36,727 nt of DNA from Chthonomonadaceae bacterium (GCA_025054835.1 JANWZQ010000051.1:1-36727); one strand, 5' to 3'. Counted from the first letter of the stretch, positions 9,648 through 25,267 are shown. The notes: generated by a model not told the origin, from the sequence alone. Program-made: numbers and translations.

Positions 9648-10349
9648 ATGGAGCCCATCGTACAGATTTCGCTGGACCTGACGAGCAAGGAGGAGGCGCT
9701 GGAGACGGCGGCAATTGCCCTGCGCGCGGGAGTGGACTGGCTGGAGGCGGGAACGCCGTTGATCCTGGCGGAGGGGTTGCATGGCGTGCGCGCCTTGCGG
9801 GAAGCCTTTCCGGATACTCCTATTGTAGCCGATTTGAAAACGATGGATGGGGGGTATCTGGAGGCGGAGATGATGGCCCGGGCGGGGGCAACGCATGTGG
9901 TGGTGATGGCGCGCGCGCACCCGGCGACGATCAAGCAGGTGGTGCGCGCCGGGAAGGATTATGGCCTCAAGGTGATGGGGGATAATCTGGGGTGCCCCGA
10001 CATGGTCGCCGGGGCTCGCATGCTGGAGGATCTCGGGTGCGACTACATCATTCATCACATTGGCTACGATGAGCGGCGTGATCCGGAGGTGATTGCGCGT
10101 AACGGGGGGGTGCCCCCGAGCCCGCTGGATCAACTGGCTGAGGTCGTCAGAGCGGTTTCGGTTCCGGTGCAGGCGGTGGGGGGACTGAGCCTGGAGCAGG
10201 CCATTGCCTGTCCGCGTTACGGGGCTCCTCTGGTTGTGCTCGGGGCCCCGTTGACGGTGGATGCAGACGCGTTCAAAACGGCGGAGGGCGATCTGGAGGG
10301 TTTGCTCCGCACGATCTGTGAGCGTATTCGCATGAACGCGAGCGCATGA
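9648..10349 (+). CDS. OMP-decarboxylase-superfamily enzyme, 3-hexulose-6-phosphate synthase-like
   Basis: The 233-residue product is a TIM-barrel protein of the orotidine-monophosphate decarboxylase suprafamily. Key features are ISLDL at the first strand, E33 in LEAGTPL, the metal/catalytic motif D62-L-K64-x-x-D67 (ADLKTMDGG), VMARAHPATIK, and HHIGYDERR, which resembles the HTGYDE segment of 3-hexulose-6-phosphate synthase (HPS). The phosphate-binding end is VQAVGGLSLEQA. HPS condenses formaldehyde with ribulose 5-phosphate; the related KGPDC decarboxylates 3-keto-L-gulonate 6-phosphate. I favour HPS-like, but the usual partner isomerase (PHI) is not in this window, so the reaction is uncertain. 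The start has GGGAGAG adjacent. The stop overlaps the next gene (ATGA at 10346). Confidence 0.8.
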   Translation: MEPIVQISLDLTSKEEALETAAIALRAGVDWLEAGTPLILAEGLHGVRALREAFPDTPIVADLKTMDGGYLEAEMMARAGATHVVVMARAHPATIKQVVRAGKDYGLKVMGDNLGCPDMVAGARMLEDLGCDYIIHHIGYDERRDPEVIARNGGVPPSPLDQLAEVVRAVSVPVQAVGGLSLEQAIACPRYGAPLVVLGAPLTVDADAFKTAEGDLEGLLRTICERIRMNASA

Positions 10350-10840
10350 TCCGGCACGTTGTGGTGACGAGGGGATGCTGGCGCTGCGGTGTGCTTGCGG
10401 ATGGGGGGCGACGCATGTTTGGATCCTTGCCAGAGGAACATCCGGCGCATTCCGACGTGGCGATGCGGCGCTTTCTCAATCGCGCGGAGGCAGCCATTCT
10501 ACTGGGGATGATTCTGGTGGTGCTCAGTCTGTTTCTGGCGTGGAAGCGGGAGGCGGTGTCGGTGCCATTGCCCGCCGTTTTTGCCGGGACGACGGTGCGC
10601 ACCGGGCTGGGGCTTGCGACGGTGTTCTGGCCCCTGTTGCTCTGCTCGTCGGTGAGCAGTGCGTTGTTGCTCTGGCCGCCCGATAGTCGGGCGCGTTCCG
10701 GGTTCTTCATGGTTCAGCTGGTCTGCGGGTTGACCTGCATGGTGGTAACTCTGACGCATATGGCGTTGCTGCCCGGTGTTCTGGTGGCGCTGGTGGGGAG
10801 TAGCCTGCTGTTGTTTGGCGCAGTGGATCGCTATGGTTGA
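10346..10840 (+). CDS. Small membrane protein, four predicted TM segments
   Basis: The 164-residue product has four hydrophobic segments at about 48-66, 88-110, 119-138 and 140-160, and a short Arg-rich N-terminus. I recognise no family. The start at 10346 overlaps the preceding stop (ATGA) but lacks a ribosome site. An in-frame ATG at 10415, with GGGGGG six nt upstream, gives a 141-residue protein beginning MFGSLPEEHPAHSD and may be the true start. It lies between the HPS-like gene and the LolA-like gene, on the same strand as both. Confidence 0.6.
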   Translation: MIRHVVVTRGCWRCGVLADGGRRMFGSLPEEHPAHSDVAMRRFLNRAEAAILLGMILVVLSLFLAWKREAVSVPLPAVFAGTTVRTGLGLATVFWPLLLCSSVSSALLLWPPDSRARSGFFMVQLVCGLTCMVVTLTHMALLPGVLVALVGSSLLLFGAVDRYG

Positions 10841-10963
10841 TCCGGGCCTGTGGAGGCGATATGCGGCGTTGCGGTACCGGGAGCGACCGCAGGGGCGCTT
10901 CTACGAGAACGAACAGGGGACTGGTTCTGCTGGTGTGTGGCGATTGTCGGAAGGGGGCCCTGG

Positions 10964-11761
10964 ATGTACGCGCGGAACATACTGAAGTGGTCGGTTTGTC
11001 TGTCGGTGTTGCTTGTGGTGGCGTTGTCGGTTGCGGGGAGCGCGCCCGGACGGGCGGATGCGAAGGGGGAGCGGCTGTTGCGCGAGGCGTTCCGGAAACT
11101 GGGCGGGGCCCGGGCCATGACCGCGTTGATTACCGCACGGATTGAGATTGAGGGGTTGCAGGAGGCTATCCTGTTGAAGGGGACGGTGGCGGCGCTCAAG
11201 CCCAACTACCTGCGGGTGGAGTTGCGCGGGGACCTGCCGTCGCGTGGTCCAATAGAGTTTATCTACGTGGCGGACGGGAAGCACTACTACTCTTTCAGCA
11301 GTCTGGAGAACGCCTATACGAAGGTCCGGCTGGATCCCAATCCTACGGAGTTTCTCGGGCAGTGGGAGGGGGAGATTGACGCGTTTTTTGGGGGCGAGAA
11401 GAACGCCGCGAAAGTCAAGGCGACATATGCCGGGAGCGAGCGTGTTGGCAACCGGATGTGCGAGGTCGTCAGGGCCGATATGGAGGTCAAGGGGCCGGAC
11501 GGCGCGCCTTTGAAGCGTACCATCACCTATTACATTGGTAAGAACGATCTGTTGATCCATCAGGCGAAGTTCAGTGTGGGGGAACAGACGCAGACCAACC
11601 AGCTAACCAACATTCGCCTGGACGCGAAGAAGGAGAAGGAGGACTTTGTGTACGTGCCTCCCCGGGATGCCCGGGAGAAGACGCCCCCACCGCCCCCGCC
11701 GACGCGTGCCGAGGGGCTGTTGTTCCGAACACAACGTCCGTTTTTCCTTGCGATCAAGTAG
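10964..11761 (+). CDS. Exported LolA/DUF2092-like protein
   Basis: The 265-residue product begins with a signal peptide (MYARNILKWSVCLSVLLVV, cleavage near residue 33). Its body is beta-rich in the manner of outer-membrane lipoprotein-sorting (LolA/LppX/DUF2092) folds: alternating strands such as ARIEIEGL, YLRVELRG, FIYVADGKHYYSFS and RTITYYIGKNDLLIHQAKF. The C-terminus carries a Pro run (TPPPPPPT) and a basic tail. The ATG at 10964 is supported by GGAAGGGGG about 6 nt upstream; an in-frame start at 10850 would place the signal peptide 38 residues in. It may bind a hydrophobic ligand in the periplasm, but that is inferred from fold resemblance only. Confidence 0.7.
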   Translation: MYARNILKWSVCLSVLLVVALSVAGSAPGRADAKGERLLREAFRKLGGARAMTALITARIEIEGLQEAILLKGTVAALKPNYLRVELRGDLPSRGPIEFIYVADGKHYYSFSSLENAYTKVRLDPNPTEFLGQWEGEIDAFFGGEKNAAKVKATYAGSERVGNRMCEVVRADMEVKGPDGAPLKRTITYYIGKNDLLIHQAKFSVGEQTQTNQLTNIRLDAKKEKEDFVYVPPRDAREKTPPPPPPTRAEGLLFRTQRPFFLAIK

Positions 11762-11906: not shown

Positions 11907-14438
11907 ATGAAAGCCGTCATTATGGCGGGAGGCGAAGGAACCCGCCTTCGCCCTCTCACTTCGCATCGTCCCAAGCCCCTGACGCCGGCTCTGAACATGC
12001 CCATTATGGAGCATATTGTCCTGCTGCTCAAGCAGCACGGCATCAAAGACATCGTTGTCACGCTGCACTACCTCGCAGATGAGATAGAGGGCTATTTCGG
12101 GGATGGTTCGGAATGGGGTGTGAATATGGTCTACTCGGTGGAGGACACGCCCCTGGGTACTGCGGGAAGTGTGAAGAAAGCCGAGGAGTATCTGAAAGGC
12201 GGCCCTTTTCTGATCATCAGTGGGGATGCCCTTACCGATATCAATCTGCACCGGGCCATTCAGTTCCACAAAGAGAAAGGGAGTATGGCGACCATCGTCC
12301 TCTCCCATGTTCCCAACCCTCTGGAGTTCGGTGTGGTGATCACGGATGATGACGGCCGCATCCGGCGCTTCCTCGAAAAGCCGTCGTGGGGCGAGGTGTT
12401 TTCCGATACGGTGAACACCGGGATGTACATTCTGGAGCCCTCGATCCTTGATTACATGGAGCCCGGGGGGAACTATGATTGGAGCCAGGACATCTTTCCC
12501 CGGATGCTGGCTGAAGGGAAACCGTTGTACGGTTACATCATGGATAACGACTACTGGTGTGACGTGGGGAACCTCCAGCAGTATCGTGAGGCGCAGTACA
12601 CGGTGATGGATGGGCAGACCCGGGTGCGGATCGGCAGTGCCGCCGATTCGCGCGGTGACGGCGTCTGGGTGGGTGATGGTTGTGAGATCGATGCCACGGC
12701 GCAGATCGCGCCTCCGGTGGTGATCGGGCGCAATTGTAAGATCAAGGCGGGCGCGATCGTCGGTCCCTACTCGGTGATCGGGGACAACAGCATCATCGAG
12801 GAGAAGGCGGTGGTGCACCGCAGTATTCTCTGGGACAACGTTTATGTGGGGGTGGAGTCGCGTCTCAACGCCTGCACGGTGTGCTCGCACACGACGATCA
12901 AGCAGAACTGCACCATTCAGGAAGGGGCGGTGATCGGCGATCGTTGCCGCATCGAGAACGATAGCACGATCCGTACGCAGATCAAGCTCTGGCCGGACAA
13001 GATCATCGAGGCGGGCAGTACGGTGACCATGAGCCTGATCTGGGGGCAGAAGTGGGCCGGCTCGCTGTTTCGGAATCAGGGGGTTATGGGCATCGCCAAT
13101 ATCGAGCTGACTCCTGATTTCGCCTGCAAGCTGGGCGCTAGCTACGGGGGGTATTTGAAGCGTGGTGCGACCGTTGTGGTGAGCCGGGACAGTGGTCCTG
13201 CGGCGCGGATGATGAAGCGCGCCATGATCTCCGGCCTGCTCTCGGTGGGTGTGAACGTGGCGGATCTGCATTCTCTGCCGTTGCCGATTGCCCGGCACAG
13301 CATTCTGGGGTCACAGGCTGGCGGGGGGGTGCATGTGCGTCTGGCGCCCAATAACCCGCGGATGCTTCTGATCGAGTTCTTTGATGATCAGGGGATTTAT
13401 CTCTCCAAGAATGCCGAGCGCAAGGTGGAGACGATCTTCTTTCGGGAGGACTTCCGGCGCGTCGACGCCGATCAGGTGGGGGAATTGAAGGACACCGGGC
13501 GCAGCGCGGAGCAATACGCCGAGGACTTCTACCGCCATCTGAAGGTGGATGAGGTACGGCAGCGGCGCTTCAAAATCGTTGCCGACTTTGCGTTCGGGCG
13601 CCTCGCCGGGGTCTATCCGACCATGCTGGGGCGCATCGGGTGCGATCTGATTGCCCTGAACGCGTACCCGGACGTGCAGAAGACGCCCAAAACGCCGGAG
13701 GCTCGTGCGGCGCTGATGCCCAATCTGGCGCAGATTGTGCGTACGCTGCGTGCTGACGCGGGGGTGATGTTTGAGGCCGACGGGGAGCGGATGACGCTGG
13801 TCGATGAGAACGGCGAGGTTATCGAGGGAGAGACGTTGCTGGCGATGATGGCGGTGCTCAAAGCGCGTACCCGGCCCAACGCGCGCATCGCGGTCCCGGT
13901 TAACGCGCCTCGCATGATCGAGGATCTGGTTGCGCTGCACGATGGCACGGTGATCCGTACCAAGACGGACGCACGTGCTCTGATGGGGGTGTGCGCGGCG
14001 GAGCCGGGGCACCCGGGCCGTGCTGATTTTGCAGGGGACGACGCCGGCGGGTTCATCTTTGCCGACTTCCAGCCCTCTTTCGACGCTATGTTTGCGTTTG
14101 GAAAGTTGCTGGAGATGCTGGCTGTGACCGACCTGAAGCTATCCGAGCTGGCCAATGAGTTGCCGAGGGCCTGTATCGCGCGTGCTGTGGTGCGTTGCCC
14201 CTGGGAGGTCAAAGGGCGTGTGATGCGTGTGCTCACCCGTGAGAGCAGCGCACTGGGCGATGGCCACCGGGTGGAGCTGATTGACGGCATCAAGATTTAC
14301 CACGGCGTTGACTGGGTGCTGGTTCTACCGGATGCTTCGGAGCCTTTCTTCCACGTGTACGCCGAGAGTGACACGATGGAGAAAGCCAACAACCTGATGT
14401 GCGATTACGTTGCTAAAATTGAGGCGTTACGCGCCTGA
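11907..14438 (+). CDS. Mannose-1-phosphate guanylyltransferase / phosphomannomutase-like fusion
   Basis: The 843-residue protein has three parts. Residues 1 to about 235 are a nucleotidyltransferase with GGEGTRLRPLT (8-18) and the sugar-binding FLEKP (155-159). About 240-375 is a left-handed beta-helix of hexapeptide repeats (IGRNCKIKAGAIVGPY). About 405-840 is a phosphohexomutase-like region (VVVSRDSGPAARMMKRAMIS, GVNVADLHSLPLPIARH). The first part should make GDP-mannose or a similar NDP-sugar. In the mutase part the active-site serine motif (TASHNP in active enzymes) reads RLAPNNP at 478-484 with no serine, and the metal loop reads EADGERM rather than DGDGDR. The mutase domain may therefore be inactive or regulatory; comparable degeneration occurs in other fusion proteins of this type. 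Length is typical for the fusion. Confidence 0.9.
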   Translation: MKAVIMAGGEGTRLRPLTSHRPKPLTPALNMPIMEHIVLLLKQHGIKDIVVTLHYLADEIEGYFGDGSEWGVNMVYSVEDTPLGTAGSVKKAEEYLKGGPFLIISGDALTDINLHRAIQFHKEKGSMATIVLSHVPNPLEFGVVITDDDGRIRRFLEKPSWGEVFSDTVNTGMYILEPSILDYMEPGGNYDWSQDIFPRMLAEGKPLYGYIMDNDYWCDVGNLQQYREAQYTVMDGQTRVRIGSAADSRGDGVWVGDGCEIDATAQIAPPVVIGRNCKIKAGAIVGPYSVIGDNSIIEEKAVVHRSILWDNVYVGVESRLNACTVCSHTTIKQNCTIQEGAVIGDRCRIENDSTIRTQIKLWPDKIIEAGSTVTMSLIWGQKWAGSLFRNQGVMGIANIELTPDFACKLGASYGGYLKRGATVVVSRDSGPAARMMKRAMISGLLSVGVNVADLHSLPLPIARHSILGSQAGGGVHVRLAPNNPRMLLIEFFDDQGIYLSKNAERKVETIFFREDFRRVDADQVGELKDTGRSAEQYAEDFYRHLKVDEVRQRRFKIVADFAFGRLAGVYPTMLGRIGCDLIALNAYPDVQKTPKTPEARAALMPNLAQIVRTLRADAGVMFEADGERMTLVDENGEVIEGETLLAMMAVLKARTRPNARIAVPVNAPRMIEDLVALHDGTVIRTKTDARALMGVCAAEPGHPGRADFAGDDAGGFIFADFQPSFDAMFAFGKLLEMLAVTDLKLSELANELPRACIARAVVRCPWEVKGRVMRVLTRESSALGDGHRVELIDGIKIYHGVDWVLVLPDASEPFFHVYAESDTMEKANNLMCDYVAKIEALRA

Positions 14439-14625: not shown

Positions 14626-16104
14626 ATGCGTGATGACCGACAGGTGGTGGTAATTGGTAGCGGGCCCGCCGGCGCGATGGCTGCGCATGAACTGGTGCGC
14701 CTGGGCGTGCCGGTCACCATGCTGGAGAGTGGGGATCGGTTTCAGGGAGGGTTGCTGGTGCGCCTGTCGGGACGCAACCTCTACCGGCGTGTCCCCCCGA
14801 TGGAGCACGGGCGCTACCACATTGCCAGCGGGGACCCGAAGACTGACTGGTACGTGAACCTGGCTCCGGGAGGTCTGTCCAACCAGTGGACGGGGGCGGT
14901 GCCTCGCTTTGCTCCGGAGGATTTCACGGAGGGGGAGCGTCTGCATGAACGGTATCGCTGGCCGGTCACCTATCAGGAGCTTGCTCCCTACTATGAACGC
15001 GCCGAACGTCTGCTGGACATTACGGCGGACCCCCGGGATGTTCCCTGCCTGCCGGCCGGTTATGCCGCGTACCATCATCGTCTGCCGGAGGACTGGCAGG
15101 CCGTGGCCCGGGTGGCGGCGCAATACGGGCAGGGGTTGACCACGCTGCCTCTGGCAGATGGCCCTCCGAACCTGATTGTGGGGCGTGGCACCGCGTTCAA
15201 TAGCTTCACCAACATCGTGCGCCGCCTGATGGCCGCTCCGCACTTCCGGTTGCTGACCGGTGCGCATGCGCTCCGGTTGGAGTGGGATGGAGCTCGAAAG
15301 CGAGTGACCTCTGTCGTCTATCATCGCCGGGCGGACGGGAGCCAGCATCGCGTGGAGGCCGCGGCATTTGTGGTGGCGTGCGGACCGCTCTTTTCCACCA
15401 AGTTGCTTTTTGATTCGGCCTGTTCTGACTTCCCTGAAGGGCTGGGCAACACGGAGGGCCTGCTCGGCCGTTTTCTGCATGATCATCCGCGCGAGTGGTG
15501 GGCATTCGACATGGATCGTCCGATCGCGTTGCTGGCTCCCTCTGCATATCTGACCCGGTTGCCTCATGCAACCTCTGAGCCGTTGATGGCGACCTCGTGG
15601 ACACTGGGGGTGGTCAGTTTGCGCGACAAGATCTGGAGCCGGTTCGGCGGCAGGTCCCGCACCGTGGGGGTTCAGGTTTTTGGAACCATGATTCCTTCCG
15701 AGGCGCACTACGTGCGTCCGTCCGGTCAGAAAAAAGATGCGTTCGGGCTTCCGCTGCTGGAGATCTGTATCCGGTACGAGGAGAAGGTGATCCAGAACAT
15801 GTTGCGTGCGCGTCAGCATCTGATGTGTTTGATGGAAGAGGCCGGCTACCGCAGTCAGATCCGGGAAGTAGAACCGCAACTGTTTCCCGGTACTTCGGTG
15901 CACTACGCGGGCACGGTGCGCATGCATCAGTCGCGGCGCTATGGCGTGCTGGATAGCTGGAACCGGTTGTTCGATGTGCCCAACGTGCTGGTTTGCGACG
16001 CCAGTTGTTTCACGACCGGTTGCGAGAAGAACCCGACGCTGACCGCAATGGCTCTTGCCGCACGGGCGGCGGACCGTCTGGCCAGTGACCTGAAAGCACA
16101 GTGA
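14626..16104 (+). CDS. GMC-family FAD-dependent oxidoreductase
   Basis: The 492-residue protein has an N-terminal FAD-binding Rossmann motif (VVVIGSGPAGAMAA, G11SGPAG16, with E34 at the end of the second strand). It has the C-terminal GMC signature: H426 in HYAGTVRM, VCDASCF, and N469 in KNPTLTAMALAARAADRL. H426 and N469 correspond to the catalytic His/Asn pair of glucose-methanol-choline oxidoreductases, which oxidise alcohols, often on sugars. No signal peptide is visible. GGGAGGAG lies 5 nt before the ATG. The next gene, an aldo/keto reductase, starts 27 nt downstream, suggesting a two-step redox conversion of a polyol or sugar. The substrate is unknown. Confidence 0.9.
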   Translation: MRDDRQVVVIGSGPAGAMAAHELVRLGVPVTMLESGDRFQGGLLVRLSGRNLYRRVPPMEHGRYHIASGDPKTDWYVNLAPGGLSNQWTGAVPRFAPEDFTEGERLHERYRWPVTYQELAPYYERAERLLDITADPRDVPCLPAGYAAYHHRLPEDWQAVARVAAQYGQGLTTLPLADGPPNLIVGRGTAFNSFTNIVRRLMAAPHFRLLTGAHALRLEWDGARKRVTSVVYHRRADGSQHRVEAAAFVVACGPLFSTKLLFDSACSDFPEGLGNTEGLLGRFLHDHPREWWAFDMDRPIALLAPSAYLTRLPHATSEPLMATSWTLGVVSLRDKIWSRFGGRSRTVGVQVFGTMIPSEAHYVRPSGQKKDAFGLPLLEICIRYEEKVIQNMLRARQHLMCLMEEAGYRSQIREVEPQLFPGTSVHYAGTVRMHQSRRYGVLDSWNRLFDVPNVLVCDASCFTTGCEKNPTLTAMALAARAADRLASDLKAQ

Positions 16105-16131
16105 CGCACCGGTCGTACGAGGAGGGGTTGC

Positions 16132-17121
16132 GTGAAGTACCGACGTTTTGGCCGTACGGGCCTGCAGGTCTCCGAGATCGGTTTCGGGTGCTCGCGACTG
16201 GGGGGCGTCTTTGCGCAGGGCAACAGCCGGCAGGAGAACCTGCGCGCGTTGCGCAGTGCGATGGATGCAGGGATCAACTTTTTTGACACGGCCGATATGT
16301 ATGCGCAGGGTGAGGCGGAGTCTCTGCTGGGGGAGGCGTTTCGCGGACGGCGTGATCAGGTGATCCTGGCGACCAAAGGGGGATATTGTCTGCCGGCGCA
16401 ACGCCGGTGGGTTGCGCGCATCAAACCTCTGGTCCGGCCGATCGTTCGCGCACTCGGCCTGCGAAGGGACCGCCTGCCTGCCGGCGTTTCCGGCGCGCTC
16501 TCTCAGGATTTCTCTCCGGGATACTTGCGGGTCGCTGTGGAGGGCAGCCTGCGTCGGCTGCGCACGGACTGCATCGATCTGTATCAGCTGCACAGTCCGC
16601 CGGCATCGGTTATCGAGTCCGGGGAGTTTGTGGGTGTAATGGAGGATTTGAAACGGCAGGGGAAGATCCGCTTCTGGGGGATTGCGGCGGACACTGCGCA
16701 GGACGCGGCGCTCGCTCTGCAGTACCCGCAGGTCGCTTCACTGCAGATTCCTTTCGGGTTGCTCGACCTGGAGGCGCTGGATCTGTTGCTGCGGCGTGTG
16801 GGGTCCGAGGGGCCAGCGATTATCGCGCGCGGTTGTTTCGGTGGGGGCCTGCTGAAGGAGGATCTGACCGCAGAGCAGTTGCAGGCCATGACCGGGAAGT
16901 GGGAACGGATCCTTGCCTACCGGCAGCTGGCACGGGAGAGAGGACGATCGGTTCTGGAGATGGCCCTGCAGTTCGTGCTACGGGCTCCCGGTGTTTCTGT
17001 CACGTTGCTCGGGATGCGCACGGAAGCGCATCTGGCGGATAACCTGCGTTACTATGCGGCACCTGCGCTCTCTGCGGAGGAGTTCGCGCAGATTGAGGGA
17101 GCGCAGGTCGCCGCGCGCTAG
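16132..17121 (+). CDS. Aldo/keto reductase
   Basis: This 329-residue NADPH-dependent oxidoreductase has the AKR tetrad: D52 and Y57 in FDTADMY, K82 in ATKGG and H154 in LYQLHSP. The N-terminal YRRFGRTGLQVSEIGFGC is typical of the YajO/Tas-type AKR subfamily. The C-terminal cofactor segment is VTLLGMRTEAHLADNL. The start is GTG at 16132 with GAGGAGGGG just upstream. A basic insertion at about 90-125 (RRWVARIKPLVRPIVRALGL) is longer than usual and may cover the active site. It follows the GMC oxidoreductase and converges with the radical SAM gene (32-nt gap). Confidence 0.93.
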   Translation: MKYRRFGRTGLQVSEIGFGCSRLGGVFAQGNSRQENLRALRSAMDAGINFFDTADMYAQGEAESLLGEAFRGRRDQVILATKGGYCLPAQRRWVARIKPLVRPIVRALGLRRDRLPAGVSGALSQDFSPGYLRVAVEGSLRRLRTDCIDLYQLHSPPASVIESGEFVGVMEDLKRQGKIRFWGIAADTAQDAALALQYPQVASLQIPFGLLDLEALDLLLRRVGSEGPAIIARGCFGGGLLKEDLTAEQLQAMTGKWERILAYRQLARERGRSVLEMALQFVLRAPGVSVTLLGMRTEAHLADNLRYYAAPALSAEEFAQIEGAQVAAR

Positions 17122-17153
17122 TGGAGTGGGATGCGGGCGCTCCACCCCGGGGC

Positions 17154-18299
17154 TCAGTGCGTGCCGTCCGGACTTCCGGGGGCGGTCGGAGTCTCTGCAG
17201 AGAGACTGCCGTGCAGCTGGAAGAAGCGTTTGCTGAACCGATCGCAGGAGGCGCAGACCGGGTTGGGAACTATGTGTTGCTTTGCGAGTGCGCGGTTGCG
17301 CTGGTAGGCCGCATTGTTCCAGATCTGTTCGAAGGGTTGCTCCAGCAGATTGCCGTAGGTGTACATCTCTTTGAATGGAGTGCAGCACCCGAGCGTGACT
17401 TCTCCGCTGAAGGTGACCCGGAAGTTCTCTCCCCAGAAGAAGGGGCAGGAGAACGGCCGGTCCGGGTCGGCCCATGAGAGATCGTCCGAGGGGAAGGACC
17501 TGCACCGTATTCCCAGCTGCTCCATGCGCTGTGCGGCGGCATCGAGCTCCCGCCGGTAGCTATCTACTGTGCGGCGGTTCTGGAATCCCCAGTCGTATCC
17601 GGCGTAGGTAATGCAGTTGATGAAGTCCACGCCGAGATCTGCCGCCTGTTCCACGAACGTCACCAGTTCCCCCTCGTTTTCGTTGAGCAGCACAAAATTG
17701 AGCCCGATCAGGGGAAACCGGGAGCGGCTGCGCTGTCGGACCCGGATCAGGTTGCGAACGTTCTGATGGACAACAGGGAGTTGCCCTCCGCGACGCACTT
17801 TACAGTAGGTTTCCGGGAGAGCCGCGTCGATGCTAACGTTCAGTTCGGTCAGGCCGCACGAGATCAGGCGCTCTGCGCGCTCCGTGTGGAGCAGCATGCC
17901 GTTGGAGTAGATGCCGATTTTGCACCACGGGCGCTTGCGGCGTGTGTACTCCACCACATCGAAGAAGCGGGGGTACATGAGCGCCTCCCCGAAGCCGTTG
18001 AGCGACAGATTGATCACCCAGGGGAACTGTTCCAGGATACGCTGGTAGGTCTCGAATTCCATCTGGCCAAGCCGGTAGGGCTTGAGGCCCTGTGAGCGCA
18101 GGCACTGCACGCAGGCGAGGTTGCACCGGTTGGTCAGCTCGATTTCGACGCCTGTCGGGTGACTGCGCATGACGAGAGGCCGCTCCCGTTGTTCCTTCTG
18201 GTACCGGTGGTAGTTGGCGAGCACGCGGGGATGTAGCAGGATGCGGAAGGCGTTGTTCTCCTTGAGTTTGTGGTAGTGACGGGTCAGTGATGCGAGCAT
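17154..18299 (-). CDS. Radical SAM protein with SPASM-like C-terminus
   Basis: The 381-residue protein carries the radical SAM cluster motif C59-x3-C63-x2-C66 (NRCNLACVQC), which binds a 4Fe-4S cluster and SAM to make a 5'-deoxyadenosyl radical. The GGE-like strand reads LNGFGEALMYP. The C-terminal region has a Cys series (SCPFFWG, LGCCTPF, VCASCDRF) typical of SPASM/twitch domains that bind auxiliary clusters. The ATG at 18299 has GGAGGAAC 6 nt upstream; the frame is open further but overlaps the preceding gene. It lies downstream of the B12-type radical SAM gene, separated by a strong hairpin. The substrate, a peptide, sugar or lipid, cannot be inferred. Confidence 0.88.
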   Translation of the reverse strand: MLASLTRHYHKLKENNAFRILLHPRVLANYHRYQKEQRERPLVMRSHPTGVEIELTNRCNLACVQCLRSQGLKPYRLGQMEFETYQRILEQFPWVINLSLNGFGEALMYPRFFDVVEYTRRKRPWCKIGIYSNGMLLHTERAERLISCGLTELNVSIDAALPETYCKVRRGGQLPVVHQNVRNLIRVRQRSRSRFPLIGLNFVLLNENEGELVTFVEQAADLGVDFINCITYAGYDWGFQNRRTVDSYRRELDAAAQRMEQLGIRCRSFPSDDLSWADPDRPFSCPFFWGENFRVTFSGEVTLGCCTPFKEMYTYGNLLEQPFEQIWNNAAYQRNRALAKQHIVPNPVCASCDRFSKRFFQLHGSLSAETPTAPGSPDGTH

Positions 18300-18340
18300 G
18301 GATGTTCCTCCGGGCCGGGGACTGGCAGGCGTACAACGGC

Positions 18341-18381
18341 CCGAGAAACGGAAGAGACGACCGATCAGGTCGCCTCTTCCG
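18341..18381 (-). terminator. Strong hairpin between the two radical SAM genes
   Basis: On the plus strand 18349-18362 pairs with 18368-18381 (14 bp, one mismatch that becomes a G-U pair in minus-strand RNA) around a 5-nt loop. On the minus strand it is followed by TTTCT. It begins 8 nt after the stop of the upstream gene and ends about 50 nt before the downstream start, so it may terminate or attenuate transcription within the operon. Confidence 0.6.
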
Positions 18382-18388
18382 CAGGGGG

Positions 18389-19996
18389 TTAGCGCTTGTG
18401 CAGCGAGAGAGGGATTTTCTCCAGCTTGCGTCCGGCGAACTCGGTGGGTATTTCGGCCAGCGGGGATCCGCGGCGGCGCCGATAGGCCACGGCGGCGCGC
18501 ACGTAGGCGAGCGCAATGCGGCGCGGGATCAGTTTGATCTGCGCCAGGAGCATCTGCTTCCAACCGGCCTTGCTGGCGCGGTACAGGCGGTAGGGGATCA
18601 CCAGCTCCAGACGCGCCCACCATCGGGCCAGAGTCAGGTCATCGGTTGTCAGGAAGCGCGAGCGCACCGTGGCGGTGTAGCTATCCCACTTCTCGTAGGT
18701 CATCTCTTTTTCGAGCAGACCTTCCTGCATGGCCCGGAAGTACATGGGCGTGCCCGGGAAGGGCGTCATGAGCGTGAAGGTGCACTCGCACTTCATGGTC
18801 TTGGCGTAGCGAATGGTGCGCTCCACCGTGTCCCAGCTCTCTTCCGGGGCACCGATGACGAAGGTACCGAACACGTGAATGCCCAGTGAGTCGGCCAGTT
18901 CGATCTTCTGGCGCAGCTTGTTGTTGATCGCGATCTTCTGACCGATGGACTCCATGCACTCTTCGTCGGCGGTTTCGATACCGGTGGTGATCGTTTTCAC
19001 TCCGGCCCGGGCCATGAGCTCGATCAGGTCGTCCTCCAGCACTTCCAGACTGACCTCGACGGTGGCGGACATCTTGATGCCTCGCTCGATCACCTTGGTC
19101 AGGATCTCGCGCACCAGCTGGCGGTTGAAGCCGAAGTTGGGGTCACGGAATCGCCACTTGTGAATGCCCCACGTTTTGTTGAGCCATTCCATCTCGGCGA
19201 CCACACGGTCCGCGGTGCTCATGCGCAGCGGGCGCCCTTCGTGGAGCATGTACGGGCACATGGTGCATCCGATGGGACATCCCCGGCTGGCCGTCACGTA
19301 GACGAAGCAGTCGGCGGGGTTGCCTGTGGGGCTATAGCGCTCCAGCGGCAGCAGGTGGTAGGCCGGGAAGGGCAATTCGGCAAGATTTTCTACCAGGACC
19401 CATTCCTTGTAACGCAGCTGCTGCCGGGCCTCGTCGTACAGCGCGTCGCCGGTCAGCGGCACGTAGGTCTTCGGATCGATCACGCCCTTCTGCTGTTTCC
19501 AGTCCTCTCCCTGCGCGTTGAACATCGCGCCGACGACGGCCTCTGGCTCTCCGTACAGGATCGCGTCGGCGTTGGTCTGGCGCACCCAGTGGTCCAGCGT
19601 GGTCATGATAACCGTGCCGAACAGGAACAGGCGGACGTGCGGCAGGCGTTGCTTGATACGGTCGGCGAAGCGCAGATCCGGTGGCAGGGTAGGAATGGAC
19701 AGGCGCACGCCGACCCAGATCTCGTCCTCGGGGCCTGTCTGGCGCTTGATCCGATTGACCACGTAGTCCAGCGCCGCGTCATCGTGGTAGCGTTCCAGCA
19801 GCAGATCGATGACGTCGGTCTGGAGGCCCGATTGTTCGCCGATGGCGGCTACCAGCATCATATCCGGGGGAGGCAGAAACAGGAACGATTTCTCCCACGG
19901 TTTGAGTTTACGTGAAACACCCAGACCGGCAGACTGCGACCGTTCGTTGGAATAGCCGCGCCGCTCCGGTGGATTAACCAGAAACAGGTACCTCAT
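18389..19996 (-). CDS. B12-binding-type radical SAM protein
   Basis: The 535-residue protein has an N-terminal region (1 to about 170) shaped like the cobalamin-binding Rossmann domain of class B radical SAM proteins (YLFLVNPPERRG, RLFLFGTVIMTT, AILYGEPE). The radical SAM motif follows: C240-x3-C244-x2-C247 in TASRGCPIGCTMCPY. SMART Elp3-like features follow (TITTGIETADEE, HVFGTFVIGAPEES). The C-terminal 100 residues are basic with amphipathic helices (WARLELVIPYRLYRASKAGW), as in membrane-associated members of the BchE/P-methylase/HpnJ group. The group includes methyltransferases and ring-forming enzymes, so the reaction is open. GAGGAGAT precedes the ATG at 19996. It follows the glycosyltransferase by 14 nt. 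Confidence 0.9.
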   Translation of the reverse strand: MRYLFLVNPPERRGYSNERSQSAGLGVSRKLKPWEKSFLFLPPPDMMLVAAIGEQSGLQTDVIDLLLERYHDDAALDYVVNRIKRQTGPEDEIWVGVRLSIPTLPPDLRFADRIKQRLPHVRLFLFGTVIMTTLDHWVRQTNADAILYGEPEAVVGAMFNAQGEDWKQQKGVIDPKTYVPLTGDALYDEARQQLRYKEWVLVENLAELPFPAYHLLPLERYSPTGNPADCFVYVTASRGCPIGCTMCPYMLHEGRPLRMSTADRVVAEMEWLNKTWGIHKWRFRDPNFGFNRQLVREILTKVIERGIKMSATVEVSLEVLEDDLIELMARAGVKTITTGIETADEECMESIGQKIAINNKLRQKIELADSLGIHVFGTFVIGAPEESWDTVERTIRYAKTMKCECTFTLMTPFPGTPMYFRAMQEGLLEKEMTYEKWDSYTATVRSRFLTTDDLTLARWWARLELVIPYRLYRASKAGWKQMLLAQIKLIPRRIALAYVRAAVAYRRRRGSPLAEIPTEFAGRKLEKIPLSLHKR

Positions 19997-20010
19997 AGGT
20001 TGTCATCTCC

Positions 20011-21258
20011 TCAACAGGTAGTCACGACCGGAGTGCGATCCGGTTCCCCGTTCAACACGTTGCGATAGATTCGCTCGACATCTTCCGCCTGTCGGCGCGG
20101 AGTGAATTGAGTGAGCACACGCATCCGGCCGCGCCGGCCCATTTCTCTACGCCGCTCCGGATCCTGCAGCAGGGCGATCAGAGCGTCGGCCAGTGCTTCG
20201 GTATCTCTGGCAGGTACCAGCAGGCCTTCCACACCGTCCGTGAGGATCTCCGGCAACGCGCCCGAGGCGAAGCCAACGACCGGGCGTTGCATGGCCATGG
20301 CCTCGGTCACCACGAGGCCAAAAGGTTCTTCCCAGGAGGGAACGGCCAGCACATCAAGATCCGCCATGACTTCTGGCATGGCGTCCAGCCACCCGGTCCA
20401 GATCACATGGGCCTCCAGGCCCAGTTCGGCGATCCGGCGGCGCACCTGATGCTCGTAGGTATCGCCGCTGGCGGCCAGCGCGTCCGTGCGTCCCACGATG
20501 GCAAGGCGCACATTCGGGAGTATCTGCCGTACTTTTGCCAGCGCTTCCACCAGTTCCATGTGCCCTTTCCAGAGCATGATCCGGGCGACAATGCCGATCA
20601 GGGGGGTATCCTCCGACAGGTGATACCGCTGGCGGAGGAAGCCGCGCGGGACACGTTCCGGGTCAAAGTCGCGCGTATCGGTTGCGTTGAGCGCCGTATA
20701 GATTTTATGCGGGGGCACGCCCCCGTCGATCAACGACTGCCGTACGAACTGTGAAATCGCCAGAACACCTGTGCACTCCTGCAGCGCCCAGGTGGTCGCG
20801 CGCCCGATTTCCGGGTACCACTTGATGTGTACGTGTATAATATTGCGTGTGCCGGTGAGCCTGGCCAGCAGCGTCGAGAACAGGGCGTCCCGGGGCCGGT
20901 CGGTTGCATGGAGGATATCGATCCCGCGCGTTCGGACGTACCATGCGAGTCGCAGCAAGGAGACCATGGCGCCGAGATTCCGGAACAGGCTGGCCATTTT
21001 GCTGAGTTTGCCTCGACTCTTGCCTGTGACCTCATAGCCCAGGTTACACACCAGAAGGTTCAGGTGCGGGACCTGCTTCAGGATGCCCAGAGTCTTCTCG
21101 AGGTCCACGGCATTGCGGTTGGTCGCAATGTGCACCTCGACCTGTGCCGGGTCGAAATTCCGGATCAGTTCCAGATGGACGGCGACGTCTGCTCCCAGCG
21201 CGCTACGCGTGTTCACAAACAGCACCCGGGGTTTGCGTCCCGGCGGTAACCCTCTCAC
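20011..21258 (-). CDS. Glycosyltransferase family 4 (GT-B) protein
   Basis: The 415-residue protein is a retaining GT-B glycosyltransferase. The N-terminal domain starts PRVLFVNTRSALGADVAVHLEL. The nucleotide-sugar domain has the R226 and K231 signature (IGIVARIMLWKGHMELVEAL) and the E311-x7-E319 motif (EEPFGLVVTEAMAMQRPVVG). It should transfer a sugar from an NDP-sugar onto a lipid, polysaccharide or small molecule at the cytoplasmic side of the membrane. The start is taken as GTG at 21258, with AGGAGAAGAGG upstream, because the N-terminus then aligns with the family. The frame extends to 21825 but there it overlaps the divergent aldolase. It is the first gene of the minus-strand operon with the B12-type radical SAM gene. 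Confidence 0.88.
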   Translation of the reverse strand: MRGLPPGRKPRVLFVNTRSALGADVAVHLELIRNFDPAQVEVHIATNRNAVDLEKTLGILKQVPHLNLLVCNLGYEVTGKSRGKLSKMASLFRNLGAMVSLLRLAWYVRTRGIDILHATDRPRDALFSTLLARLTGTRNIIHVHIKWYPEIGRATTWALQECTGVLAISQFVRQSLIDGGVPPHKIYTALNATDTRDFDPERVPRGFLRQRYHLSEDTPLIGIVARIMLWKGHMELVEALAKVRQILPNVRLAIVGRTDALAASGDTYEHQVRRRIAELGLEAHVIWTGWLDAMPEVMADLDVLAVPSWEEPFGLVVTEAMAMQRPVVGFASGALPEILTDGVEGLLVPARDTEALADALIALLQDPERRREMGRRGRMRVLTQFTPRRQAEDVERIYRNVLNGEPDRTPVVTTC

Positions 21259-21450
21259 GGTGATGGTCCTCTTCTCCTGTTGGCTCCAGTTCACAGGGAT
21301 TATGGCCAGAGGTTGTTGTAAACGGACTGCCAGAAATACGGGCTTTTCTGCGCTCCGGGACCGCCGTTTGCCTCTCGCGGGTGCAAGAACTGTGCCAATA
21401 ACGTTGTATCTGGCGGGCGCTCCGTCCGGGCCGGAGCATGGAGGAGAGAG

Positions 21451-22287
21451 ATGCCCCTTGTAGCGACCTGTGAGTTGTTGCGCGATGCGCAGCGTCGTGG
21501 CTACGCGGTTCCCGGCTTTGAGCCTTACAACCTGGAGCAGATACAGGCCGTACTGGAGGCCGCAGAGGAGGAGCGGGCACCGGTTCTGATCCAGCTCTGG
21601 GCCGAAGTTCTCGAGACCTACGGGATGGACCTGCTGGTTGCGATCGTGCGTACAATCGCGGATCGGATCGCGGTGCCGGTGGGGTTGCATCTGGATCACG
21701 CAACCGATGAGACGCTTGTGGAGCGTGCCATTGTGGCCGGGTTTACCTCTGTGATGTTTGATGGCTCGGCACTGCCTCTGGAGGAGAACGTGGCGCGGAC
21801 GCGCCGGGTGGTCCGGAAGGCACACGCGTACGGGGTTGCTGTGGAGGCAGAGCTCGGGATTGTAGGGCGTCTGGATCCTGCGGATGACGTGGAAGAGACC
21901 CTGCGGCGCGTCGCGGATCTACTCACCGATCCATCGCTGGCCAGACGCTTTGTGGAGGAGACCGGCACGGATATTCTGGCTCCCGCGGTGGGCACCATCC
22001 ATGGATGCCCGCTGCCGCTGGCGCGGCTGGACATTCCGCGGATTGCCGCGATCGCGCGCGCCGTGCAGGTGCCGCTGGCGTTGCATGGGGGAAGCGGCGT
22101 GGGCGAGGAGGCGCTCCAACAGGCTATTGCGGCGGGCATCGCGAAAGTAAATATCGACACGGAGGTGCGCGCTGTGAGTATTGCCGCCCTGAAGGAGCAG
22201 GTCGCCCGGATCGGTGAGACTGGAGATCCTGTTTACCTGGACTATGCCCGTTATCCGCGCGCGGTTCGCGCCTCAACCGAAGAGTAG
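21451..22287 (+). CDS. Class II (zinc) aldolase, fructose-/tagatose-bisphosphate type
   Basis: The 278-residue protein matches class II aldolases: catalytic D82 and zinc ligand H83 (LHLDHATD), E132/E134 (VEAELG), H184 (GTIHG), H212 (LHGGSG), and the phosphate-binding KVNIDTEVR near 230. The family cleaves ketose 1,6-bisphosphates to DHAP and an aldehyde. At 278 residues it is closer to the GatY/KbaY or short FbaA class than to the 350-residue E. coli FbaA. GGAGGAGAG precedes the ATG. It diverges from the glycosyltransferase with 192 nt between them. It may be the central glycolytic aldolase or a pathway-specific one. Confidence 0.9.
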   Translation: MPLVATCELLRDAQRRGYAVPGFEPYNLEQIQAVLEAAEEERAPVLIQLWAEVLETYGMDLLVAIVRTIADRIAVPVGLHLDHATDETLVERAIVAGFTSVMFDGSALPLEENVARTRRVVRKAHAYGVAVEAELGIVGRLDPADDVEETLRRVADLLTDPSLARRFVEETGTDILAPAVGTIHGCPLPLARLDIPRIAAIARAVQVPLALHGGSGVGEEALQQAIAAGIAKVNIDTEVRAVSIAALKEQVARIGETGDPVYLDYARYPRAVRASTEE

Positions 22288-22413
22288 GTGAGTCAGAGGA
22301 TCCGGATGGTTGGTGCGAATGGAAGAGCATGAGGCGGTTCTGTGGCGCGTGAACAACAGGAGGCTCTCCGGGACCCGGGGACCTGCAAACCATACAACAG
22401 GGGAGACGCTATC

Positions 22414-22956
22414 ATGTCGCACGGTGCACCGTTGCTGGTTTTCGCGTTGAACGTTCAGGCGCCACCACTGCGGCAATTGCTGGTGCCCATGCAGGCGGCG
22501 GGTTTTCCGGTTGCGCTGGGAACCGGGATTGTCGGAGAGGCCGGTGCGGAGGCACTGGATAGCCCGGAGTGGGACGCGGCGTTCATACGCTGGAACCAGC
22601 CTGAAATGCATGAGGTGGCCCTGCTGGAGCGCATGGTCTGCGACGAGGACGAGGAAGGGATGGTGCGCGTGACCGAGGCGATGAATCAGGTGCTACAGTG
22701 GGAGGATCAGGTTGGACGTCTCATCGTTGCCGCGCATCTGCAGCAGACACAGGCTGTGTATGCGTTGCAACTGCTGGACGCATTGTTCACAGACGAGGAT
22801 CATCCGGCGTGGGGAGCGTTTGATATTCTCCTGCGCGTTCTGGCGGACTACACAGATGGCCTGATCTATGTGGAAGGGGAGGGCTACCTCGATGCTGACG
22901 GGGAGTTGCTGCTTTCGGAGGAAGATGCGCCCGCAAGTCCGGGGAAGAGCGTCTGA
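22414..22956 (+). CDS. Unknown acidic protein (180 aa)
   Basis: I do not recognise this protein. It is soluble and acidic with no signal peptide or membrane segment. The N-terminal MSHGAPLLVFALNVQAPPLR, a central acidic helical stretch (VCDEDEEGMVRVTEAMNQVL), and the C-terminal LIYVEGEGYLDADGELLLSEE suggest a compact alpha/beta domain with an acidic tail. The ATG at 22414 has GGGGAG 9 nt upstream. Its last 73 nt overlap the 3' end of tatD on the opposite strand. It follows the aldolase by 126 nt. Confidence 0.65.
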   Translation: MSHGAPLLVFALNVQAPPLRQLLVPMQAAGFPVALGTGIVGEAGAEALDSPEWDAAFIRWNQPEMHEVALLERMVCDEDEEGMVRVTEAMNQVLQWEDQVGRLIVAAHLQQTQAVYALQLLDALFTDEDHPAWGAFDILLRVLADYTDGLIYVEGEGYLDADGELLLSEEDAPASPGKSV

Positions 22957-23702
22957 GCGTTCCGGGTGGTGAGTGCGGCAATATCCTCGAAATGCAGGCC
23001 ACGTAGTTCCGCCAGTTTCTGTGCGATGAGCGGCACGTACGCGGGCTCGTTGCGTTGTCCCCGGTGCGGCATGGGAGCCAGGTAGGGGGCATCCGTCTCC
23101 ACAAGCAGGGTATCCGGGGGGACCGTGCGTGCGGCCGCGCGTATCGCTTCCGCGTTTTTGAAGGTCAGAGTGCCACCAAATCCCAGCTTCAACCCCAGTG
23201 TTGCTGCCCGCTGTGCTTCTTCCACTGTGCCTGCCCAGCAGTGCATGACTCCACCGATCTGCGCTACAGATACTTGCTCCAGAATGGCCAGTGTTTCCGG
23301 GTATGCCTCGCGGCAATGAATGATGACAGGCCGATGGAGGCGGTGTGCCATCTGCAGCTGATCGCGGAAGGCGCGGTACTGGTCCTCGCGTGGTGAGAAA
23401 TCGTAGTGGAAGTCCAGGCCGATCTCACCGATGGCAACCGTACAGGGGTGCATGGCGAGAGCCGTCAGGCGTTCTTCTGCCTCTGGAGTCCAGTGGCGCG
23501 CATCGTGCGGGTGGATCGCGACGGCTGCAAAGAGGGTGCCTTGGTGCTGTTCTGCCAGCGCGACCGCATGCTCGCTGCTGGTCAGGTCGTAGCCAACCAC
23601 GATCATCTGCAGCACCCCGGCCTGTCTGGCGCGTGTCAGGCACACATCAAGGTCGGTGGCAAAACGCTCGTGGTTGAAGTGGCAGTGTGTGTCGATGAGC
23701 AT
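22884..23702 (-). CDS. tatD: TatD family metal-dependent DNase/hydrolase
   Basis: The 272-residue amidohydrolase-fold protein has the TatD metal ligands: H6 and H8 (IDTHCHFN), E93 (AIGEIGLDF), H129 (VIIHCREAYPE), H154 (VMHCWAG) and D204 (VETDAPYLAP). The family shows 3'-5' exonuclease or deoxyribonuclease activity. The ATG at 23702 is chosen because AGGAG lies 7-10 nt upstream; an in-frame ATG at 23717 abuts the T-tract of a terminator and lacks a ribosome site. The C-terminus (SSSESSNSPSASR) is low complexity and lies in the antisense overlap with the unknown acidic gene. It follows the sigma-factor gene, whose terminator ends just before the start codon. Confidence 0.93.
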   Translation of the reverse strand: MLIDTHCHFNHERFATDLDVCLTRARQAGVLQMIVVGYDLTSSEHAVALAEQHQGTLFAAVAIHPHDARHWTPEAEERLTALAMHPCTVAIGEIGLDFHYDFSPREDQYRAFRDQLQMAHRLHRPVIIHCREAYPETLAILEQVSVAQIGGVMHCWAGTVEEAQRAATLGLKLGFGGTLTFKNAEAIRAAARTVPPDTLLVETDAPYLAPMPHRGQRNEPAYVPLIAQKLAELRGLHFEDIAALTTRNAQTLFPGLAGASSSESSNSPSASR

Positions 23703-23718
23703 GCGGGGGCTCCTCATG

Positions 23719-23748
23719 AAAAAGCGTTCCCGAGCGAGCCGGGAACGC
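23719..23748 (-). terminator. Intrinsic terminator after the sigma-factor gene
   Basis: GCGTTCCCG (23724-23732) pairs perfectly with CGGGAACGC (23740-23748) around a 7-nt loop. On the minus strand it is followed by TTTTT (23723-23719). It lies 32 nt after the sigma-factor stop and 16 nt before the tatD start codon. Confidence 0.85.
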
Positions 23749-23780
23749 GCAGGTTCGTAGAGAGACGGCGCCGGGCCGTG

Positions 23781-24434
23781 CTACGCGGTGTTTGGTTGCA
23801 GTTGCGGCAGCGTAGCAAGCCGCTCCTTAAAACCCGGATCCTCTGCCTTCTGAGCGCTCGGAACCTTGTTCAGAGCACGACGCAACAACGATCGTCCGCG
23901 ATGGATGCGGGACCGCACCGTCCCGATCGAGGAGTTCATGATCCGTGCGATCTCCTCGTAGGAGTAGCCCTCTACGTCGCACAGCAGCACTGCGATGCGG
24001 AAGGGCTCCGGGAGCGCCTGAAGGGCTTTCTGCAACCGCTCATCCATCACCTGTTCCATCAGGTTGCGCTCCGGGTTGGTTGCTTCGTCCGGGATTTGCA
24101 GGAGCAGGTTATCGTCGCTTTCCTCATCGCCCACTGGTTGATCGAGCGAGAGTGGTTTCTGCTTCGGTCGACGGCGCAACAGATCGATAAACAGATTCGA
24201 CAGGATGCGGAAGAACCAGCTCTCAAACGGGAGTTGCCGGTTGTACGTGCCAAAAGAGCGGTAGGCGCGCAGGTAGGCCTCCTGCGTCAGGTCTTCGGCG
24301 TCGTCACGGTTGCCGGTCAAACGATAAGCCATGTTGTAAGCCTGCCGGTAGGTGCGATCCACCAGTTTCTGAAACTCCGCGTGATCGGCGGGGCGTACCG
24401 CCGTTGTGCTGGAGGTGTTGATGTGCGTGCTCAT
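23781..24434 (-). CDS. ECF-like RNA polymerase sigma factor (sigma-70 family)
   Basis: The 217-residue protein has sigma region 2 (about 20-90: YRQAYNMAYRLTGNRDDAED, LTQEAYLRAYRSF, FESWFFRILSNLFIDLLRR) and region 4 with a helix-turn-helix (about 130-185: LPEPFRIAVLLCDVEGYSYE, EIARIMNSSIGTVRSRIHRG). There is no region 3, as expected for the group 4 (ECF) class, near RpoE/SigW-type members. The ATG at 24434 has AAGGAGAG about 7 nt upstream; a longer in-frame start at 24476 lacks one. No adjacent gene encodes an obvious anti-sigma factor, which is unusual for this class. It ends at a strong terminator. Confidence 0.92.
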   Translation of the reverse strand: MSTHINTSSTTAVRPADHAEFQKLVDRTYRQAYNMAYRLTGNRDDAEDLTQEAYLRAYRSFGTYNRQLPFESWFFRILSNLFIDLLRRRPKQKPLSLDQPVGDEESDDNLLLQIPDEATNPERNLMEQVMDERLQKALQALPEPFRIAVLLCDVEGYSYEEIARIMNSSIGTVRSRIHRGRSLLRRALNKVPSAQKAEDPGFKERLATLPQLQPNTA

Positions 24435-24604
24435 AGGGTGACTCTCCTTACTCTTGCCGACGACCCACAAATCCATCGTGTTAACCGGTGCCGTTTCGCC
24501 GACAGCATGCCTCGCTTCTCACAAAGTCCGCAAGTGGCATTAGAACTGATCGGTACTAAAGCAAGGCACGAACAAGTGTACTTTCTACTTCTTTTGACGT
24601 CGTT

Positions 24605-25267
24605 TCAGCGGCAAGGTTTCGTGTTTTCGTGTCGCGAGTGTTTCGGGGAAGTGGGCGTAGCGGAAGTGCCGGGCAGGCGCAACAGGTGCAACGCAACCGA
24701 GAGACCGCAGAGCAACGCCTCTGTGTTCTGATGCGCTTTCGCCACAATCAGCAGGCCCTGCAACGAGGCTACCAGAAATGTTGCCATCTCTGCCGGGGGG
24801 AGATCGTTACGGAACTGACCGGCGTGCACGCCTTCTGTCAGGCAGTCGCGCACCGCTTCCTCGACTCTGTGGAACAACCGGCTGAGTGTTTGCCGGTACC
24901 GTTCGTACTGTTCGTTGCCGGGGCCGGTTGGCAGGGAGGCCGTCATGTTGCCGAACGAGCAACCGGCCATACGCGCCTGCTCCTGCATCTGGCAGATCTG
25001 TTCGAAGAAGCGAGCCAGGCGATCGGCGGGGGAGATCTGGCGATTCTGCAGGGACGGAAGGAGGGCTGCCTCGAACTCCGCGATCCGCTGTTCGATCACG
25101 GCGAGGATCAGGGCTTCCTTGCTGGGGAAGTGGTAGTAGAAGTTACTTCTGGAGACCCCGCTCACGCGCAGGATATCATCGATGCTGGTCATCTGGAAGC
25201 CGTAGTGGTAGAAGAGCTCTTTGGCGGTCTGCAGGATACGTTCCCGGCTGCTGGCCCGGTGGTTCAT
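24605..25267 (-). CDS. TetR family transcriptional regulator
   Basis: The 220-residue protein has the TetR N-terminal helix-turn-helix (about 7-55: ILQTAKELFYHYGFQMTSID, DILRVSGVSRSNFYYHFPSKEALI). It has an all-helical C-terminal ligand domain with AGCSFGNMTASL, typical of the TetR C-terminal family seen in YxaF/LmrA-like regulators. The ATG at 25267 overlaps the stop of the TPR gene (ATGA), so its translation is probably coupled. As the last gene of the prfA operon, its nearest likely targets are the ABC ATPase and membrane genes upstream, but no operator could be identified. Confidence 0.92.
   Translation of the reverse strand: MNHRASSRERILQTAKELFYHYGFQMTSIDDILRVSGVSRSNFYYHFPSKEALILAVIEQRIAEFEAALLPSLQNRQISPADRLARFFEQICQMQEQARMAGCSFGNMTASLPTGPGNEQYERYRQTLSRLFHRVEEAVRDCLTEGVHAGQFRNDLPPAEMATFLVASLQGLLIVAKAHQNTEALLCGLSVALHLLRLPGTSATPTSPKHSRHENTKPCR

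Follow-up and report, generated by a model that had tools for sequence, protein, structure and literature searches.

What is a glycosyltransferase doing in an operon with two radical S-adenosylmethionine (SAM) enzymes of different classes? The question is raised by a stretch of 36,727 nucleotides, called the window here, from the draft genome of a Chthonomonadaceae bacterium of the little-studied phylum Armatimonadota (3.7 Mb, 97% complete; G000). In the interval under study, positions 14626 to 22287, the genes for a GMC-family oxidoreductase and an adjacent aldo/keto reductase converge on a minus-strand run of three genes. These encode a GT4-family glycosyltransferase, a B12-type radical SAM enzyme and a SPASM-family radical SAM enzyme of the twitch type. 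This layout had been proposed from the sequence alone (the original prediction), and we could confirm it with coordinates. The genes are not chance open reading frames (ORFs), since they encode conserved proteins with clear Pfam domains, and orthologues of the B12-type enzyme share 50-73% identity. The three minus-strand genes are a real conserved functional unit. The set is apparently undescribed; as originally stated, no described pathway with it was found.

The order GT4, B12-type, twitch and the common strand are kept in six genomes (G000, G017, G018, G019, G020 and G027). A query with the B12-type protein recovered seven orthologues in relatives with E-values below 1e-168, compared with 1e-32 for other radical SAM proteins. 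In G007, which belongs to the same family as G000, the contig stops after the B12-type gene and the twitch gene begins at the end of a different contig. The twitch gene of G028 is located away from the other core genes, and in G005 the GT4 and twitch genes are on separate contigs. No B12-type gene was found in G005. The contig there extends only about 0.4 kb upstream of the twitch gene, and this part contains none; loss, relocation and an assembly gap all fit this finding and cannot be distinguished.

Co-occurrence was analyzed in 31 genomes of the class, 24 of them of high quality. The GT4 gene is present in nine, the twitch gene in ten (in one case truncated at a contig end) and the B12-type gene in eight, and the three distributions are nested almost perfectly. 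GT4 and twitch genes occur together in nine genomes, the twitch gene without GT4 in one, GT4 without twitch in none and neither gene in 21 (Fisher 5e-7; 8e-6 by genus, kinship being considered to genus level only). For the B12-type and twitch genes the corresponding numbers are eight with both, two with the twitch gene only, none with the B12-type gene only and 21 with neither (6e-6; 1e-4 by genus). The co-occurrence survives unlinking, as all three genes are found in G028 and GT4 and twitch genes in G005. With the same order in six genomes and a near-perfect co-occurrence even where the genes are apart, the view that a glycosyltransferase and two radical SAM enzymes of different classes belong together is borne out.

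Orthologues of the B12-type enzyme were identified in 8 of 291 Armatimonadota genomes, and nothing else comes near. A search of 84,980 GTDB species with two diagnostic peptides revealed none outside the Chthonomonadales, although diverged members lacking those peptides would escape it. No relative was detected among viral contigs, and plasmids gave remote best matches only, with less than 30% identity. A Solidesulfovibrio plasmid contains both kinds of enzyme amid many surface-glycan genes, but not as this operon.

The B12-type tree separates G000, G007 and G027 from the remainder with full support and long branches. G027 belongs to another family, with which its twitch gene clusters (support 93/96), but its B12-type gene falls into the subtype of the window. 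The GT4 tree is poorly resolved. Because of the discordance in G027, the middle gene of the operon was probably swapped across lineages, with at least one neighbouring gene remaining in place. The two B12-type subtypes look like variation of one tailoring step.

For the functional assignment, proteins were compared with Pfam, NCBIfam and PDB by profile, and the AlphaFold model of the B12-type enzyme was compared with PDB structures using Foldseek. The B12-type enzyme is most similar to AprD4 by profile as well as by predicted fold. AprD4 is a radical SAM 1,2-diol dehydratase, which works with a reductase partner on paromamine, an aminosugar disaccharide made by a glycosyltransferase (PMC5461906). 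In the PDB, AprD4 scores 121 bits against the family profile, and the next match 37. For the model (mean predicted local distance difference test, pLDDT, 78) the top Foldseek match was again AprD4 (6fd2; E 6e-21, template modelling scores 0.68/0.79), followed by TsrM (1.6e-14). All eight family members match the NCBIfam AprD4 model (best 1.7e-42). Domain order, overall fold and three motifs, RTYxGG (ERSQSAG in subtype I), CPYxxxEG and FRDPxF, are common to AprD4 and the B12-type members, and AprD4 likewise acts downstream of a glycosyltransferase in the apramycin pathway. Unlike AprD4, however, the window enzyme is not located in an antibiotic cluster, no AprD3 reductase gene was recognised with it, and identity is only about 21%. 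A closer relative of AprD4 is encoded in another Armatimonadota family (L083:6721-8205, genome G217), with 183 bits to NF033070 and a YYCPYPF motif.

A further feature of the family is a basic C-terminal tail. In every B12-type member the final 76-91 residues have a net charge between +8 and +15, and the rest of the protein is slightly acidic. The tail suggests work at the membrane, with which its charge fits. An amphipathic membrane helix was considered and rejected, the hydrophobic moments being unremarkable.

The other radical SAM enzyme had been described as SPASM-like. It does belong to the SPASM family in Pfam, but it contains the cysteines for one auxiliary cluster only. The radical SAM motif CX3CX2C is located at residues 59-66 (C59, C63 and C66) and the auxiliary-cluster cysteines are C285, C305/306, C349 and C352, all invariant in nine orthologues. 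In the seven-cysteine SPASM motif CX9-15GX4C-gap-CX2CX5CX3C-gap-C, the first four cysteines are conserved, with a spacing of x5 instead of x4 after the glycine, and the later ones are absent. The enzyme is therefore of the twitch type with one auxiliary cluster. Its best solved relative is BtrN (4m7t), the dehydrogenase of the butirosin pathway, with which it shares the radical SAM core and a C-terminal one-cluster domain with four cysteines (C-x19-C, CxxC). In BtrN, which oxidises an aminocyclitol, four cysteines hold the auxiliary cluster (PMC9012708). The window enzyme differs from BtrN by about 110 additional residues, a conserved N-terminal extension and two extra invariant cysteines (C229 and C266). 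As for the glycosyltransferase, the nearest solved relatives in the PDB are enzymes of the BshA, MshA and HepE type, some of these names being our own assignment.

The preferred explanation for these relations is a three-gene glycoside-tailoring operon, in which a sugar or cyclitol would be attached, then dehydrated and oxidised by radical chemistry, probably near a membrane. We assign this reading a probability of roughly 0.4. The GT4 enzyme would transfer a sugar to an acceptor, with UDP-N-acetylglucosamine (UDP-GlcNAc) or the like as donor; the acceptor is probably a lipid or an envelope glycan because the basic tail of the AprD4-like enzyme suggests membrane work. The AprD4-like enzyme would then eliminate one hydroxyl group of a sugar 1,2-diol to yield a keto-deoxy sugar, and the BtrN-like twitch enzyme would oxidise a C-OH to a ketone, its auxiliary cluster accepting the second electron. 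In three genomes only, the GMC oxidase and the aldo/keto reductase may further oxidise or reduce the same product.

Several observations weigh against this assignment. In most genomes a reductase partner is not linked to the operon. The window protein scores slightly higher against the NCBIfam HpnJ model (121.9 bits) than against the AprD4 model (103.1 bits), both far below the respective cut-offs of 577.6 and 500 bits, the latter being the equivalog cut-off. Its radical SAM motif, at residues 240-247, is CX3CX2C as in all eight members, in contrast to CX3CX3C in AprD4 (6fd2). The similarity of the twitch enzyme to BtrN is weak (38 + 20 bits), and its structure model is poor (pLDDT 57), too weak for a fold comparison.

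HpnJ, the top NCBIfam match of the window's B12-type enzyme, leads to a hopanoid explanation. In a head-group route parallel to HpnI/HpnK/HpnJ, the GT4 enzyme would add an aminosugar to bacteriohopanetetrol (BHT) and the radical SAM enzymes would remodel the ring. We consider this unlikely, and the link to hopanoids is only hinted at and best taken as a lead. The HpnI-HpnK-HpnJ pathway to BHT cyclitol ether likewise combines a glycosyltransferase with a B12-domain radical SAM enzyme on a sugar head group; the module differs by its GT4 enzyme in place of HpnI and by the extra twitch enzyme, and no HpnK was seen beside it. The fold search has no weight on HpnJ because no HpnJ structure turned up among the PDB results. 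SHC and HpnH are encoded in every genome with the module, but their presence is uninformative, since SHC occurs in 28 and HpnH in 30 of the 31 class genomes. In G020 and G025 about 5 kb separate the module from SHC-HpnH, with both on one strand; this linkage is confined to one genus, and unrelated genes intervene. HpnI and HpnJ are missing from the window's genome, which does contain SHC, HpnH, HpnA and an HpnG-like protein, and producers of BHT cyclitol ether without detected hpnI, hpnJ or hpnK are a noted puzzle (PMC12583986). However, six module genomes have a true, separate HpnJ gene as well, which argues against simple replacement; as a general rule, the B12-type enzyme as a substitute for HpnJ was rejected on this ground. 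The association between HpnJ absence and module presence gave p 0.07. In lacking HpnI and HpnJ, the window's genome (contig C163) is unlike nearly all of its relatives.

Decoration of a lipopolysaccharide core or an exopolysaccharide, with a branch sugar added by the GT4 enzyme and converted into a deoxy or keto sugar by both radical enzymes, appears doubtful to a similar degree. In G217 an AprD4-like enzyme lies amid a flippase-like protein, a GT2 enzyme and nucleoside diphosphate (NDP)-sugar genes in what looks like an exopolysaccharide locus. On a plasmid of Eleftheria terrae (NZ_CP106952.1, 94259-111593) a remote B12-type relative is found with a PIG-L deacetylase, an epimerase and two GT4 genes. 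The window's genome makes 3-deoxy-D-manno-octulosonic acid (Kdo), with KdsB encoded at 35867-36631, and the top NCBIfam match of the GT4 enzyme is EpsE, below the cut-off. In the loci of relatives that were read, however, the module has no flippase, polymerase or other NDP-sugar gene next to it. The Eleftheria terrae cluster is unfamiliar in its own right and also contains an NAD(P)-dependent oxidoreductase, a WecB-type glycosyltransferase and a cobalamin-dependent protein.

C-methylation had been among the chemistries first suggested, and a cobalamin-dependent C-methylase acting on a glycolipid or sugar would have the class B radical SAM architecture seen here. Pfam B12-binding matches are present in five of the eight members, although weak (best 0.00093), and methylases were recovered by fold at lower score. 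Among proteins of known structure, however, AprD4 is clearly closer by both profile and fold than any methylase, and the window protein has no detectable Pfam B12-binding domain. The proximity of the B12-type enzyme to a dehydratase, AprD4, rather than to the methylases disfavours C-methylation; we regard this explanation as improbable and the earlier methylation reading as probably wrong. An aminoglycoside-like antibiotic cluster is very improbable: AprD4-like, BtrN-like, GT4 and GMC enzymes are all kinds known from aminoglycoside pathways, but the loci read show no 2-deoxy-scyllo-inosose (DOI) synthase, dedicated transporter or resistance gene next to the module, and among the window genes and the module neighbours read there is no 2-deoxystreptamine set (DOI synthase, aminotransferase and dehydrogenase with a glycosyltransferase), DOI synthase not having been sought in the rest of the genome.

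Returning to the glycoside-tailoring operon, its extent could be defined from the neighbouring genes. Conservation of the gene neighbourhood in relatives had been set beforehand as a check on a six-gene module. The core three genes are kept together and the flanking genes are apart, so that the module of six was rejected in favour of the core. The GMC-aldo/keto reductase pair is restricted to G000, G005 and G028, adjacent in 3/3, and all three genomes carry GT4 and twitch genes. The pair and the module genes are on different contigs in G005 and G028. The association with the module is weak (p about 0.02-0.05; Fisher 0.019 by genome, 0.049 by genus). It is plausible that both enzymes are optional partners, for which the data are suggestive, not firm. 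The nearest solved relatives of the GMC protein in the PDB are FAD-dependent glucose and fructose dehydrogenases. With these and pyranose oxidase it shares the GMC family and the conserved His and Asn near the C-terminus, but identity is low and it stays under every NCBIfam cut-off.

The aldolase and the NDP-mannose synthase fusion, which had been described as flanking the module, are both present nearby. The fusion gene, however, is located outside the interval, and the aldolase gene diverges from the GT4 gene and is no member of the operon. All 24 high-quality genomes in the class encode the fusion; the aldolase is present in 12/31, on contigs other than that of the module. Neither was ever found beside the module elsewhere or showed an association with the core, and both look like chance neighbours.

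Table. Features in and around the interval, in positions of the window (aa, amino acids; values under Evidence are Pfam E-values, except for the hairpins, where the minimum free energy (MFE) is given)
Feature	Position	Strand	Evidence
Mannose-1-phosphate guanylyltransferase/phosphohexomutase fusion, housekeeping neighbour, outside the module	11907..14438	+	
GMC-family FAD sugar/alcohol oxidoreductase, 492 aa, plausible optional partner	14626..16104	+	GMC_oxred_C 1.2e-14
Aldo/keto reductase, 329 aa, in all cases next to the GMC gene	16132..17121	+	Aldo_ket_red 3.7e-51
Twitch-type (SPASM-family) radical SAM enzyme, 381 aa	17154..18299	-	SPASM 1.6e-9
Two strong hairpins between the B12-type and twitch radical SAM genes	18296..18392	-	MFE -46.8 kcal/mol, z -5.2
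B12-domain radical SAM enzyme, AprD4-like, 535 aa	18389..19996	-	Radical_SAM 1.9e-15
GT4-family glycosyltransferase, 415 aa, GTG start, leading gene of the core operon	20011..21258	-	Glycos_transf_1 2.6e-37
Class II ketose-bisphosphate aldolase, divergent neighbour, outside the module	21451..22287	+	F_bP_aldolase 8.2e-83

The intergenic gaps in the core operon are 14 nucleotides between the GT4 and B12-type genes and 89 between the B12-type and twitch genes; the GMC and aldo/keto reductase genes are separated by 27. Alignment to orthologues and an upstream GGAGG indicated that the mechanical ORF starts of the GT4 and twitch genes are overlong. The most likely starts are GTG at 21258 for GT4 and ATG at 18299 for the twitch gene. 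Between the two radical SAM genes, a 13-bp stem is followed by a second stem, which covers the ribosome-binding site of the twitch gene. The hairpins are strong in the window and absent from five relatives, and a conserved RNA element was therefore rejected.

Elsewhere in the window, a 3-hexulose-6-phosphate synthase-like protein (TIGR03128, 141 bits, below the cut-off) is encoded at 9648-10349, upstream of the NDP-mannose fusion. A serine hydrolase of the class C beta-lactamase/D-aminopeptidase family (1114-2526) is under all NCBIfam cut-offs shown, and a large OPT-like membrane protein with DUF6785/DUF6784 is located at 33827-35854. The ORFs at 90-983, 10346-10840, 10850-11761, 22342-22956 and 23406-24731 match no Pfam or NCBIfam family, and some may be non-genes.

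AprD4-type dehydration and BtrN-type oxidation are known from antibiotic pathways. Here, relatives of both enzymes are fixed together with a glycosyltransferase outside a recognisable antibiotic cluster, which points to an undescribed modification of a sugar, probably in the cell envelope. More specifically, though this is rather unlikely in its full form, the product might be an undescribed membrane glycolipid head group, possibly of a hopanoid, made by a radical diol dehydratase and a dehydrogenase on a GT4-attached sugar, with the dehydratase slot filled by either of two interchangeable subtypes. The gene set is small and testable, with clear mass-shift predictions. If the module does act on hopanoids, it could bear on the BHT cyclitol ether producers in which hpnI, hpnJ and hpnK have not been found.

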